Shown one piece after another: positions 172 to 11,052 of a DNA stretch of 64,000 nt. Source of the DNA: Pseudomonadota bacterium (GTDB lineage Bacteria > Pseudomonadota > Gammaproteobacteria > Burkholderiales > Ferrovaceae). Under the pieces are notes generated by a model. The model saw only the letters and a list, made by a program, of their open reading frames with translations, searched no databases and had not been told where the DNA came from. A program made the position numbers and the translations under genes. Within the stretch, counting starts at the first letter, position 1; each line of letters opens with the position of its first letter. Location of the stretch: assembly GCA_021796835.1 (NCBI GenBank), contig JAKABO010000010.1, positions 1 through 64,000 of the forward strand. Reading direction: 5' to 3'.

Positions 172-510
172 ATGGTGATGGTGACATTTTTGACTCCACC
201 GATGCAGGATAAACTGGTCGTGGAAACATCTCCCGGTTTTAGTTTGCTGGAATTGATGGAGCGATACAACCTGCGCAGGAACTGCGTGTGTGGGGAGGGA
301 AAGTGCGGGGCTTGTGCTGTGAAAATAGTTCCGATGCGGCGGACTCCCAAGTGGATAACCATAGGGTATCTCGAAAGGATCCAGTTCGTACGGGACGGGA
401 AACTGTCCAAGGCCGAGAGCGAACAGCCCATGTTCAAGGACATTCCGCCCAGATGGCGCCTGGCCTGCCAGTATATTGTTTCAGATGAGCCCATCCTGGT
501 GGTCTTTTAG
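172..510 (+). CDS. [2Fe-2S] ferredoxin, FeSII (Shethna protein II)-like, nif-associated
   Basis: A 112-residue plant-type [2Fe-2S] ferredoxin. Cluster ligands are C40, C45, C48 (C-x4-C-x2-C) and C99 in RLACQ. The segment before the last cysteine (GKLSKAESEQP, then a DIPPRWRLACQ-type stretch) closely resembles the Azotobacter FeSII protein (GKLPKSEEE, DLPPTYRLACQ), as recalled. FeSII binds nitrogenase under oxygen stress and holds it in an inactive protected state. The position 79 bp after nifK suggests co-expression with the structural genes. The start at 172 has GGGGTGA upstream; an in-frame ATG at 178 is an alternative. An ordinary electron-donor role to nitrogenase cannot be excluded. Confidence 0.75.
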   Translation: MVMVTFLTPPMQDKLVVETSPGFSLLELMERYNLRRNCVCGEGKCGACAVKIVPMRRTPKWITIGYLERIQFVRDGKLSKAESEQPMFKDIPPRWRLACQYIVSDEPILVVF

Positions 511-536: not shown

Positions 537-2267
537 ATGAAAAACAACGGGCCCGTCACGCAGCATGAAATCGATTACCCTGAATCGGTCGTATTCGTTA
601 CGCGCACCGATCCGAAAGGCATCATCACCGATGCCAACGAATCTTTTGTGCGTATCTCCGGGTTCGAGCGTACTGAACTCGCCGGGAAAAGTCATAATGT
701 GGTGCGTCATCCCGATATGCCCCAGTGGGCCTTTGCCGACTTGTGGAAAACAGTCAGGTCGGGTCGTGTCTGGCGCGGTTTTGTCAAGAACCGGGCAAAA
801 AATGGCGATCATTACTGGGTCCTGGCCACAGTTTCTCCCATCATCCAGAATGGGCGTGTCGAAGGCTACCTTTCGTATCGAAAGAAGCCTACACGTCAGG
901 AGGTTCTGGATGCTGAAGCGCTCTATCGACGATATCCCACGCAGGCTCCGTCCCGACCCTTTTCCCTGAAACACTGGTTTTCCGGTCTGTCTGTCCAGTA
1001 CAAGATGCAGGTCATGGTTCAGCCACTCCTGTTCGTGCTGTTGACGGGTTCTACCTTCCTCACCTATCAGCAGATTCGCTCGAACATTCTCGATGATGCC
1101 GCAGACTGTTTGCTTTGTCATCAAGGGCATGTAGGATCAGGCAGCGGGGCCTCCGGTCAGACGGCGGATTTGTCAAAAGAATTTGCCCGCCTGAACGTCA
1201 TCGTCCTGACATTGCTGGCGGCACAGGTCGTCTTGCAAGTTCTGCTGTTTTTTATCTTCAGTTGGGTGTCACGCAGTTATGTTGCGCGGCCTCTTCTGAT
1301 CGTGACACAGCACCTCGAGGAGATCGTGGCAGGGGATTTCAGTCGACCGGCAGACATCAGCGGAGAAGATGAGGTAGGCACGCTGCTGGACAAGGTCCAG
1401 TCCACCAAGGTCTTGATGGGCGCCATCATCGACCGAATCATGTCCACGTCGGAAAACATCAATACCCGTACGTTGGAGACGGAGAAGGCTTCCCGGTCAG
1501 CAGCCAGGATATCGTTGGAGCAGTCCGAATTCTCTCGGGCAGCAACAGCAAGTGTTGGGGAAATTTCCTCGAGTATCGATAGAACGGCCGATAACGCGAA
1601 CATGGTGGGACAAACTTCGGCCCGTTCGTTGCTGGAAGCCAAGGAAGGAATGACCACGGTTCAAGAGGTGGTCGACAATATGATCGTGATCAGCAAGGAG
1701 GTGCTGCGAGCCTCGGATGCCGTTCGGAATCTGGGGGAGCGTGCCGGGCAGATTACGCAGATCGTGGGTTCCATCAAGGAGATTGCCGACCAGACCAACC
1801 TGCTGGCCCTGAATGCAGCCATTGAAGCAGCGCGCGCCGGGGAACAGGGACGAGGGTTCGCGGTCGTGGCCGATGAAGTGAGAAAGTTGGCCGGGCAGAG
1901 CGCCCAGAGCGCCGAAACGATCGGGAAAGTATCAAGTGGAATTCGAGAAGGCACTCTGGAGGCGATTCGCATGATCGATCTCGTGGTGGAGAAGGTTCGG
2001 CATGGGGAAGTGCAGGCCGGAAAAGCAGGGAATGCCATCGATAAAATTGCCCGGGAGTCGGAAAAGATGGTGGCGGGAATTTCCGACATCGTGGCGGCAG
2101 TGCAGGAACAGAGTGCCGCCAGCCATGAGGTGGCGATGCGTATCGAACAGATTGCCCAGGGGGCAGAGAATAATGCAGAGTCGGTGGAACAGGTGAATGA
2201 GGCCACCAAGGCGCTGGTGAGCATGGCTTGTGAACTCAATCAACTGACCGGGCGATTCAAGTTATAG
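537..2267 (+). CDS. Aer-type PAS chemoreceptor (MCP) with a periplasmic CxxCH motif
   Basis: A 576-residue methyl-accepting chemotaxis protein. Residues about 15-120 form a PAS domain like that of aerotaxis receptor Aer (TDANESFVRISGF, HPDMP). TM1 lies near 159-177 and TM2 near 219-243. A HAMP-like segment follows TM2. The signalling hairpin carries the conserved tip around NLLALNAAIEAARAGEQGRG. The roughly 42-residue loop between the membrane segments contains C191-L-L-C194-H195, a classical haem c attachment motif; Aer itself has almost no periplasmic loop. The gene starts 26 bp after the FeSII-like ferredoxin, so it is probably transcribed with nif. It likely senses oxygen or redox state and signals to CheA, which is not in the window. 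Confidence 0.85.
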   Translation: MKNNGPVTQHEIDYPESVVFVTRTDPKGIITDANESFVRISGFERTELAGKSHNVVRHPDMPQWAFADLWKTVRSGRVWRGFVKNRAKNGDHYWVLATVSPIIQNGRVEGYLSYRKKPTRQEVLDAEALYRRYPTQAPSRPFSLKHWFSGLSVQYKMQVMVQPLLFVLLTGSTFLTYQQIRSNILDDAADCLLCHQGHVGSGSGASGQTADLSKEFARLNVIVLTLLAAQVVLQVLLFFIFSWVSRSYVARPLLIVTQHLEEIVAGDFSRPADISGEDEVGTLLDKVQSTKVLMGAIIDRIMSTSENINTRTLETEKASRSAARISLEQSEFSRAATASVGEISSSIDRTADNANMVGQTSARSLLEAKEGMTTVQEVVDNMIVISKEVLRASDAVRNLGERAGQITQIVGSIKEIADQTNLLALNAAIEAARAGEQGRGFAVVADEVRKLAGQSAQSAETIGKVSSGIREGTLEAIRMIDLVVEKVRHGEVQAGKAGNAIDKIARESEKMVAGISDIVAAVQEQSAASHEVAMRIEQIAQGAENNAESVEQVNEATKALVSMACELNQLTGRFKL

Positions 2268-8381: not shown

Positions 8382-8535
8382 CGGAAAATTTGTTTCGCGT
8401 GAACAGACAGGGCACATCTGGTAGACTTGAGTTGTGCATGCATCCAGGGGTGGGTTTTGAACCCAATGCTATTTGGCCTGTAGGGAGACATCGTGAGAAG
8501 TCATTGTGGGTGAGAAGAAGATAATTTCGGACTAC

Positions 8536-10341
8536 ATGTCTCAAGAGAAGTTGATTACGGCGGAAAATATTGCCAACCGTAAGAATTTTCTTGAATTTTC
8601 CGAAGTTGATGTCGAGATTCTGGGGCAAATTCATCGGTATCTGGAACACAATGAGGCGATTGTCGATTCATTTACCGATTCGTTCTATCGGCATGTTTTT
8701 TCTTTTCCAGAATTGAAAATGATGCTTCCTGATGAAGCATCGATCGACCGGCTCAAGAAAATACAATCCCGGTATTTCTTTCGCCTGACTGCAGGTGACT
8801 ACGGCGAGGATTATGTTTCAGATCGATTGAAAGTCGGTTATGCCCATCAGAAGGTCGGTCTCGAACCAAAGTGGTATACCGGCGCCTACCGGAAATATCT
8901 ATCCTCCTTGCTGCCAATCTTGCACGAGATTTTTGGAGACGACAGTACGAAACTGATCGCGGCTTATGATGCGATATTGAAGGTGGTCTTTTTTGACATG
9001 GATTTGGCCCTGGATACCTATTTTCATTCCGGCATGCGAAAACTGCTTCGGCTGGCCAACTACGATTCCCTCACCGGCCTGCCCAACCGCAATCTGTTCT
9101 ATGACCGGTTGGCTCAGGAGATCAAGAAAGCCCAGCGGGACGGATCGTCTCTGGTTCTGCTGCTCATCGACCTCGATCAGTTCAAGGAAGTCAACGACAC
9201 CCTAGGACACCCGTCCGGCGATCTGTTGTTGGTTGAATCCGCCCGGAGAATCCGGAAATGTGTGCGTGACGCTGATACCGTGGCTCGACTGGGCGGGGAC
9301 GAATTCATCATCATTCTGCCTGAACTCCACATGCATACGCATGTGGAGCGTATTGCCCAGAATATCATTCAGGTATTGAGCAAGCCCTATCAACTGGACA
9401 ACGATACCGTTCATATCTCTGCCAGCATCGGGATCACCGTTTATCCGGAGGATGCACAGGACATCGCAAGCCTCCTGAAACACGTGGATCAGGCGATGTA
9501 CGCGGCCAAGGCGGAAGGGCGCAACCGTTTCGGCTATTTTACCCAATCCATGCAGCAGGAAGCCATGGAAAAGCAGGAGTTGACCAACGATCTCCGACAG
9601 GCGCTGGCTCGAAACGAGTTACATGTGTACTATCAGCCCATCCTGGAGTTGAAGAGCGGGTCGATCACCAAAGCAGAGGCTTTGCTGCGCTGGAAGCATC
9701 CTACACGGGGCATGGTCAGTCCGGCGATCTTTATTCCATTGGCTGAAGAATCCGGAATCATCCACGAGATCGGTGACTGGGTGTTCCAGCAGGCAGTCGT
9801 CTGTGTGGTGGACTGGCAGAAACGGCTCGGACGTATCATTCAGGTCAGCGTGAATAATTCCCCTATCCAGTTCGAGTATCCGGAAAGGCAGGGCTGGCAA
9901 AAGCAGATGAAAGAACTGGGCGTTCCCGGAAACAGAATCAACGTTGAAATCACGGAAGGGTTGTTGTTCAAAAAATCAGCCAAAACCATGGAACGGTTGC
10001 TGGACTTCAGAAATAGCGGAATCGAAGTATCCATCGACGACTTCGGTACCGGTTTTTCCTCACTGGCGTACCTCAAGCAATTTGATATCGATTACCTCAA
10101 GATCGACCGCTCCTTCATCAAGGATTTGGAGAAGAATGCGGACGACAGGGCGCTGACCGAGGCGATCATCGTCATGGCCCACAAACTGGGCATCAGGACC
10201 ATTGCAGAGGGCGTGGAAACAGAGGTGCAGCGTGATCTGTTGAAATCATGCGATTGCGACTTCGTTCAGGGGTTTCTGTATTCCCCCGCCGTACCTGCCG
10301 TCGAGTTTGAAAGAATGATCGCAGGAAAACAGCCGATCTGA
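8536..10341 (+). CDS. Globin-coupled sensor with GGDEF and EAL domains (oxygen-responsive c-di-GMP enzyme)
   Basis: A 601-residue cytoplasmic protein. Residues about 15-165 are a sensor globin with proximal haem ligand H104 in the family motif VGYAHQKVGLEPKWYTGAY. A GGDEF domain follows, with an intact GGDEF at 253-257 and an inhibitory RxxD (R244-D247) five residues before it. An EAL domain follows, with E381-A-L-L-R and DDFGTGFSSL. Oxygen bound to the globin haem probably tunes c-di-GMP synthesis or breakdown. Both active sites look complete, so net activity cannot be predicted. ATG 8536 is chosen; a GTG at 8506 would add ten residues. Most described oxygen-sensing globin cyclases have GGDEF only. 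Confidence 0.92.
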   Translation: MSQEKLITAENIANRKNFLEFSEVDVEILGQIHRYLEHNEAIVDSFTDSFYRHVFSFPELKMMLPDEASIDRLKKIQSRYFFRLTAGDYGEDYVSDRLKVGYAHQKVGLEPKWYTGAYRKYLSSLLPILHEIFGDDSTKLIAAYDAILKVVFFDMDLALDTYFHSGMRKLLRLANYDSLTGLPNRNLFYDRLAQEIKKAQRDGSSLVLLLIDLDQFKEVNDTLGHPSGDLLLVESARRIRKCVRDADTVARLGGDEFIIILPELHMHTHVERIAQNIIQVLSKPYQLDNDTVHISASIGITVYPEDAQDIASLLKHVDQAMYAAKAEGRNRFGYFTQSMQQEAMEKQELTNDLRQALARNELHVYYQPILELKSGSITKAEALLRWKHPTRGMVSPAIFIPLAEESGIIHEIGDWVFQQAVVCVVDWQKRLGRIIQVSVNNSPIQFEYPERQGWQKQMKELGVPGNRINVEITEGLLFKKSAKTMERLLDFRNSGIEVSIDDFGTGFSSLAYLKQFDIDYLKIDRSFIKDLEKNADDRALTEAIIVMAHKLGIRTIAEGVETEVQRDLLKSCDCDFVQGFLYSPAVPAVEFERMIAGKQPI

Positions 10342-10490: not shown

Positions 10491-10519
10491 TTGACTGTAT
10501 GCACATCCGTATGTACTAT
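10491..10519 (+). promoter_or_regulatory. Promoter and palindrome of the brnT-brnA pair
   Basis: TTGACT (10491-10496), a 17-base spacer and TACTAT (10514-10519) form a strong sigma-70 promoter. ATGTA-CTA-TACAT (10511-10523) is a palindrome over the -10, a likely site for BrnA autorepression. The predicted transcript start (about 10526) is next to the toxin ATG at 10527, so the mRNA may be leaderless. The rest of 10342-10490 shows no gene. Confidence 0.65.
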
Positions 10520-10526
10520 ACATGAC

Positions 10527-10775
10527 ATGAAAATCGAGTTCGACCCGAAGAAAGCCGAGATCAATCCCCTCAACCATGACGGAGTGACATTCGAGGAGGC
10601 CAAACCTGTATTGCTCGATCCATACGCACTCACGAAAGAGGATCATGATGCGGAAGGAGAGCAGCGCTTCATTTCCCTTGGAGTGGTATGGACTCAACGA
10701 GGTGACAGCATACGTCTCGTTTCAGCATGGAAGGCAAACCAACAGCAAAGGAAGCGATATGAAGAGCAGTTCTGA
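10527..10775 (+). CDS. brnT: BrnT-family toxin, apparently internally shortened
   Basis: An 82-residue protein opening MKIEFDPKKAE and GVTFEEA, with the later RGDSIRLVSAWKAN, the pattern of BrnT (RelE-fold ribonuclease toxins). Compared with the family as I know it, about ten residues are missing between RFISLG and VVWTQRGD, where a beta strand is expected, and the usual ISAR arginine is replaced (VSAW). The toxin may be weak or inactive. It overlaps brnA by 17 bases. No ribosome site precedes the ATG. Confidence 0.75.
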   Translation: MKIEFDPKKAEINPLNHDGVTFEEAKPVLLDPYALTKEDHDAEGEQRFISLGVVWTQRGDSIRLVSAWKANQQQRKRYEEQF

Positions 10776-11052
10776 TGCAATGCACGAGCAATACAAAGAC
10801 ATGGACTTTTCGGATGCAAAGCCAGTCTCGGGCATCCCGGCCCTGGCGAAGCTCCAGGCCGAGTCTGGAGGAAAAACCCGCATCACAATGCGTCTGGACA
10901 ATGACGTGCTGGCCATCTTCAAGGCCAGAGCGGAAATGACTGGGGGTAATTATCAAACCCTCATCAATGAAGCCCTGAAGCAGTTTGCTGTTGGGCAAAC
11001 TCTGGCAGACGTTGTGAGGGAAACAATACGGCAGGAACTTCACGCCGCTTGA
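10759..11052 (+). CDS. brnA: BrnA-family antitoxin (CopG/ribbon-helix-helix)
   Basis: A 97-residue antitoxin. The core KTRITMRLDNDVLAIFKARAE followed by a NYQTLINEALKQF segment is the BrnA ribbon-helix-helix region, which binds the operator as a dimer and neutralises BrnT. It looks intact, unlike its partner. ATG 10759 lies inside the toxin frame with AAAGGAAG upstream; ATG 10780 is a possible internal start. No mobility gene is visible nearby, although a tRNA lies about 200 bp downstream. Confidence 0.85.
   Translation: MKSSSDAMHEQYKDMDFSDAKPVSGIPALAKLQAESGGKTRITMRLDNDVLAIFKARAEMTGGNYQTLINEALKQFAVGQTLADVVRETIRQELHAA

Follow-up and report, generated by a model that had tools for sequence, protein, structure and literature searches.

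The receptor P0001, a 576-residue protein of the order PAS-TM-TM-HAMP-MCP encoded by an open reading frame at positions 537-2267 (plus strand) of the window (the whole stretch of 64,000 nucleotides that was analysed), is very probably an FAD receptor of the Aer type, derived by deletion from a receptor with dual FAD and c-haem input, its CLLCH motif being a remnant of the periplasmic domain that was removed. The ancestor would have carried a FAD-PAS and, in the periplasm between its two membrane helices, a GSU0935-type Cache domain with c-haem. An in-frame deletion of about 115 residues would have taken out the helices and strands 1-3 of this domain, and with them probably the distal ligand of the haem, joining ...ILDDAA to DCLLCHQ... 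and leaving the CxxCH segment and the last strand as a loop. The cytoplasmic PAS of the product would bind FAD and its redox state would pass via HAMP to the MCP tip and CheA/CheW, whereas the loop would be a vestige, the motif being gone in the closest orthologue. The features of the gene in the window are:

537-2267, plus strand: chemoreceptor gene P0001 (PAS-TM-loop-TM-HAMP-MCP, 576 aa), from the open reading frame and domain search
591-872, plus strand: Aer-type PAS domain, residues 19-112 (Pfam; gapless alignment to Aer 8dik, E 1.1e-38)
1005-1064, plus strand: first transmembrane helix, about residues 157-176 (hydropathy; AlphaFold helix 153-196)
1065-1193, plus strand: 43-residue loop, residues 177-219, placed in the periplasm (hydropathy; residues 196-209 with pLDDT < 50)
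1103/1104, plus strand: putative deletion junction between codons 189 and 190, where relatives have about 115 extra residues, the Cache core of the c-haem domain (L023 and L036 as references)
1104-1202, plus strand: probable remnant of the C-terminal end of the c-haem domain, residues 190-222, 23/33 identical to the sister receptor L036 (alignment)
1107-1121, plus strand: CxxCH motif C191-L-L-C194-H195 (read in the translation)
1194-1265, plus strand: second transmembrane helix, about residues 220-243 (hydropathy)
1278-1385, plus strand: HAMP domain, residues 248-283 (Pfam)
1623-2159, plus strand: MCP signalling domain, residues 363-541 (domain search)

The preliminary description had called this an Aer-like receptor, and the later data agree with it. 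The domain order, the match of the PAS to that of E. coli Aer and the FAD contacts all lead to the same assignment, and HAMP and MCP were both above the family cut-off. The residues of Aer that contact FAD are H53, R57, W70, N85 and R115 (PMC9668731, available text), and all five are present in P0001 at the same numbers, with R115 just past the PAS and with M69 replaced by L. When P0001 was compared to its orthologue in F. myxofaciens P3G, the overall dN/dS was 0.093, with 0.05 for the PAS and 0.19 for TM2 plus HAMP; the overall value is an average that may include time before the deletion. A pseudogene was rejected on this value and the open frame. The gene is under purifying selection. Because the FAD contacts are kept and dN/dS is low, P0001 is likely a working Aer-type sensor without a periplasmic domain, one that presumably binds FAD and functions in taxis. 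The genome of P0001 has six MCP signalling domains and six CheW-family matches, and it is assigned to a Ferrovum species on the ground that, of its named relatives among the matches listed, F. myxofaciens P3G is the nearest. In the available parts of the literature, motility and diazotrophy are given as traits of F. myxofaciens strains (PMC4886054), and strain P3G is said to have an aer homologue (PMC7236192).

The motif itself lies where it had been placed, in the stretch of residues 177-219 between two hydrophobic helices at about residues 157-176 and 220-243. The PAS, HAMP and MCP parts of such receptors are cytoplasmic, and because of this, and because the loop lies between two helices, the loop is assigned to the periplasm as had been claimed, a placement that comes from hydropathy and the cytoplasmic PAS, HAMP and MCP. 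The AlphaFold model of residues 1-300 was poor (mean pLDDT 65), with the loop disordered and with the membrane helix reaching residue 196, through CLLCH, at a mean pLDDT of only 49-66. At 43 residues, the loop is the longest among the short forms collected, the 42 others having 2-30. Given how often Cys and His occur in the receptors collected, a CxxCH is expected by chance in such a loop about 2e-5 times; this expectation and the homology of the segment to the end of a longer domain rule out a chance origin. Judged from the alignment, CLLCH is a result of descent from that longer domain.

The longer domain is found in P0001's own genome, G000. The paralogue L023 (contig C21, 687 aa) matches P0001 before and after a gap of some 115 residues, at only 62-65% identity, and in L023 the extra residues and the CxxCH segment make up one domain, which is also present in the sister receptors L036 and L025 of another Ferrovum species. 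The full domain ends in CLNCH/CLLCHQ in L023 and L036/L025, and P0001 joins ILDDAA, at the start of the first helix of the domain, to DCLLCHQ. With a query of the domain core that did not hold the motif, no match was detected in P0001, which lacks about 115 residues compared to L023 and L036. In 13 aligned copies of the domain the CxxCH, the FHxT before it, the SD after it and the NMLM in the first helix were all invariant. By analogy with GSU0935, in which Met60 is a distal haem ligand (PMC8396549, available text), NMLM would provide the distal ligand of the parental domain. The c-haem site of P0001 is incomplete, the scaffold, NMLM and FHxT all being missing.

The domain of L023 was modelled with a mean pLDDT of 85.8 and with the order H H E H H E E h E H, and in this model the CxxCH helix (122-125) lies between the third and fourth strands (102-112 and 133-142). 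Its first match in Foldseek was the c-haem sensor GSU0935 (3b42) with an E of 3.7e-6, the TM values being only 0.37/0.47 and the rmsd, taken over all of the alignment, 14.8; the structure 3b42 is that of a swapped dimer (PMC8396549, available text). In VIA-align, WalK was matched with a Z of 11.0 and Tll0287 (5b82) with a Z of 9.5, and 3b42 was not among the 50 entries listed, which has no bearing on the relationship. L023 was not matched by PF21563 (Mcp40H-20_sensor), which we take to be the family of the GSU0935/GSU0582 c-haem chemoreceptors and to be built on GSU0935-type sensors. The cut-off of this family was passed by two of ten distant relatives of the domain, L099 (2e-6) and L112 (1.1e-6), and these two match the domain of L023 at 9e-9 and 6e-12, respectively. 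With PF11845 there was no match to L023 at E<=10 and none in 32 Ferrovaceae genomes; three of the ten distant relatives reached E 0.1-0.2, which is below the cut-off, and HHalign against its members gave a probability of 35% over 38 columns around the motif and 0.3% when the motif was removed. A sequence search of the PDB with the domain profile gave nothing significant, a search with one distant relative gave none, and there was no match in a plasmid collection. From the model and its structural matches, the domain of L023 is predicted to be a haem-binding periplasmic Cache domain like that of the c-haem sensor GSU0935, and the full-length parents would be haem-binding receptors. Such parents, with FAD-PAS and the domain, were found in genomes titled Ferrovum, Gallionella, Sideroxydans, Candidatus Ferrigenium and others. 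P0001's genome also has two further proteins with the domain and CxxCH. One, an apparent histidine kinase encoded at 2404-4287 of L127 (G000:C54), has CLSCH in its periplasmic c-haem-type domain, which shares 65% identity with the domain of L023; the other is an MCP without Aer-type PAS.

The relatives that were compared are the best 80 of at least 561 from one scan plus overlapping sets of 150 and 32 genomes, an incomplete sample, drawn from genome collections in which each species has a single genome. From 81 PAS-bearing frames, 65 were left without identical or contained copies, and with eight added from fetched regions and one unrelated PAS protein taken out there were 72 rows for the tree. 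Presence of the domain was scored by the core query without the motif, so that the motif count is independent of the labels. The core was present in 27 of the 72 PAS-bearing rows and in 15 of the 36 PAS-less receptors collected, and CxxCH was found in all 42 (for the PAS-less receptors the motif-free query gave 15/15 with CxxCH and a query holding the motif gave 17/17). The core is missing from the other 45 PAS-bearing rows, 43 of which are short and two long with another insert, and of these 45 only P0001 has CxxCH. The P3G orthologue, which at 88% identity is the closest among the relatives collected, is without CxxCH and has instead the loop AKGLMMDLS, sequence NILDDAVAKGLMMDLSKEF. The preliminary description had looked to close homologues for conservation of the motif and had seen in the loop a minimal periplasmic haem; with the motif missing in this orthologue and in all 42 other short forms collected, neither conservation nor a working haem device is borne out, and the segment corresponds to the end of a domain that P0001 has lost by deletion but that paralogues in its genome keep whole.

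In the tree of 72 receptors, made with the inter-TM columns removed, P0001 and the P3G orthologue formed a clade (support 100) inside the full-length Ferrovum receptors. A careful tree of 25 rows, also without the inter-TM columns, again joined these two (100/100) and nested them in a Ferrovum clade of 12 rows (100/100) in which the other 10 are full-length; a group of four rows with L025 and L036 had a support of 88/90. Presence of the domain changed at least four times in the 25-row tree and at least six times in the 72-receptor tree, where five changes are forced by well supported branches, and these may be gains or losses. Change counts give no direction, and it is because leftover segments remain, in P0001 and as IDLSENF in L026, that the data point to loss of the domain in Ferrovum. 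The triplet AKG of P3G can be aligned as the N-side of the domain (24/30 bases to L025) or as its C-side (18/27 to P0001), and the history can be read either as two separate deletions or as a single deletion common to both, after which P3G lost CLLCH. That the domain is really present in the P0001 gene and is missing through an error of assembly or sequencing is extremely improbable. The contig does start just 536 bases upstream of the gene, window position 1 being contig position 1, but the frame is open across the junction with both flanks matching the sister receptor, P3G, which is a separate assembly, also has a short loop, and the identity of the full-length paralogue is too low for a collapsed repeat. 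A frame-broken full-length paralogue was seen in P3G (L136, G003:C123) and a truncated piece of an Aer-type PAS in another species (L146, G001:C4). The receptor family seems to be decaying in the genus Ferrovum.

One comparison may count against a pure vestige. DCLLCHQ is unchanged in P0001 compared to L036 while eight of the first 24 residues of the loop differ (P 0.033 by a simple draw with boundaries picked post hoc), and because the motif is unchanged while the loop around it has changed, selection on the motif may be possible; for C, C and H alone P was 0.28. Outside the motif there is drift, the family-invariant D after GAS being G in P0001. C191, C194 and H195 are kept and H198 is gained where L036 and L023 have E, as would suit cysteines repurposed to stabilise or tune the dimer, either through a disulfide or by binding a metal along with H195 and the newly gained H198. 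We doubt that this is so, however, as these features are seen in none of the 42 other short forms collected and the P3G orthologue, under the same purifying selection, is without these residues. If P0001 is a dual receptor cut down by deletion, as we prefer to read it, then its loop would be without function.

Attachment of haem to CLLCH would be chemically possible because the Ccm genes are present and System I takes short CXXCH peptides. The Ccm System I cluster in P0001's genome looks complete and includes ccmF, ccmH, ccmI, ccmB, ccmC and ccmE by Pfam and ccmA and ccmG by position and by their ABC and redoxin domains. ResB was not found in this genome, and maturation of haem by System II was rejected for this reason. 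According to the available text of PMC3601427, System I (Ccm) accepts CXXCH peptides of 12 residues as haem substrates and needs little beyond CXXCH. With Ccm present and such peptides as substrates, haem might be attached to the loop without a signalling role, as a passive, microperoxidase-like ornament on a receptor that works through FAD; we consider this unlikely, and the helix that AlphaFold predicts through CLLCH, at its low pLDDT there, could hinder attachment. There is only a very slight chance that the Ccm-loaded remnant loop is kept in P0001's species as a microperoxidase-like periplasmic redox or gas antenna coupled to the FAD-PAS. Such an antenna would be a cytochrome-derived fragment kept after loss of the Cache scaffold, the reverse of the origin proposed for the domain in the available text of PMC12889525.

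The surroundings of the gene were the other ground on which a role in oxygen sensing had been proposed. Two further features of the window bear on this:

172-510, plus strand: ferredoxin-like open reading frame, by eye of the 2Fe-2S type, lying between nifE and nifK (the latter placed by synteny with P3G, since window base 1 is where the contig starts)
2533-3912, plus strand: nifE (TIGR01283, E 1.5e-201, above cut-off)

The spacing of 26 bp between a nitrogenase-associated ferredoxin and the receptor, given in the preliminary description, is correct, the ferredoxin-like frame ending at 510 and the gene starting at 537, and so is the placement in the nif region, P0001 lying between the ferredoxin and nifE just as in F. 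myxofaciens P3G. Downstream of P0001 are nifE, a NifX-associated gene and molybdate transport genes. The ferredoxin-like frame had no NCBIfam match at E<=1e-5 and has copies of 87-91% identity in the nif loci of G003, G005 and G006. nifE was found in five of eight Ferrovum genomes and the receptor is beside it in two of these five, G000 (P0001) and G003 (P3G). In the nif locus of G005 there is a fossil, MKNN|VAGDFSRPADISG, between the ferredoxin and nifE (L159, 1377-1426), in which the first four codons of the receptor are fused to 39 bases of the HAMP region, a piece with 87% identity to window 1325-1363. In G006, of which the genome is 74% complete with this interval covered, no trace of the receptor was recognised between the ferredoxin and nifE, and the G001 contig breaks off 183 bp short of nifE, so that linkage is not judgeable there. 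The linkage to nif that had been suggested is present in G000 and G003 and absent in G005, with its fossil, and G006, and it is weak across the five nifE-bearing Ferrovum genomes. Because of the fossil in G005 and the absence in G006, the gene order indicates that a nif-linked receptor existed in an ancestor and was lost at least once.

nifN was above the cut-off only in G000 (C34:690-2123, L180), beside frames that by eye resemble a ferredoxin and a NifX-like protein, and G001, G003, G005 and G006 had nifN matches below the cut-off only, at the places of nifK and nifE. This pattern reflects either missing contigs or nif systems without nifN. The frame at window 8506-10341, near the nif/mod genes, is by eye what we take to be a globin-coupled sensor with GGDEF and EAL, and it is a candidate for more direct sensing of oxygen near these genes. 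At window 10491-11052 there are two small overlapping frames that resemble a toxin-antitoxin pair of the BrnT/BrnA type.

That a covalent haem on the short loop senses periplasmic oxygen or redox potential and works with the FAD-PAS to guide cells towards oxygen concentrations tolerable to nitrogenase is, in our judgment, very improbable. It would be in keeping with the intact and periplasmic motif, with the Ccm System I genes and the little that System I needs beyond CXXCH, and with the location of the gene between ferredoxin and nifE in two species. The motif, however, is missing in the 88% identical orthologue of the same locus as well as in the 42 other short forms collected, the scaffold is gone, the loop is partly disordered in a poor model, and, of the four nif-bearing species that can be judged, two have lost the gene by deletion or lack it.

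Reading P0001 as the product of a deletion offers an origin route for an Aer-type receptor, in which a periplasmic haem domain is cut from a dual FAD and c-haem receptor, and in Ferrovum this loss would still be readable. The full-length parents would unite redox sensors on both sides of the membrane, and they are more interesting and a better target than the remnant. In a literature search that covered few subscription papers, no publication was recognised on P0001 or on an Aer-type FAD-PAS combined with a c-haem Cache domain. P0001 is like E. coli Aer (8dik) in its order of FAD-PAS, membrane hairpin, HAMP and MCP and in its FAD contacts, and unlike Aer it appears to be derived from a c-haem-type receptor, has a 43-residue loop with CLLCH and lies in a nif operon. 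The parental domain is like those of GSU0935 and GSU0582 (3b42/3b47) in its predicted fold, in the CxxCH between strands 3 and 4 and in the MCP output, whereas P0001 has lost the domain and its parents add an N-terminal FAD-PAS, which the available text on GSU0935 and GSU0582 does not mention. In the sCache_heme/DUF3365/Tll0287-like proteins a CXXCH is inserted into the Cache between strands 3 and 4, and fusions of this domain to signalling modules have the properties of NO sensors (PMC12889525, a preprint, available text). The modelled parental domain shares with this group (PF11845) the Cache fold and the position of CXXCH, but differs in that none of the 32 Ferrovaceae genomes matched and that the profile comparison (35%) was confined to the motif region. 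Finally, the combination of a periplasmic c-haem and a cytoplasmic PAS, which had been put forward as new, is also that of Desulfovibrio DcrA; P0001's parents would resemble DcrA in having both in one MCP, whereas in the available text of PMC8396549 the PAS of DcrA is described as haem-free, with FAD unmentioned, and its periplasmic domain is present.
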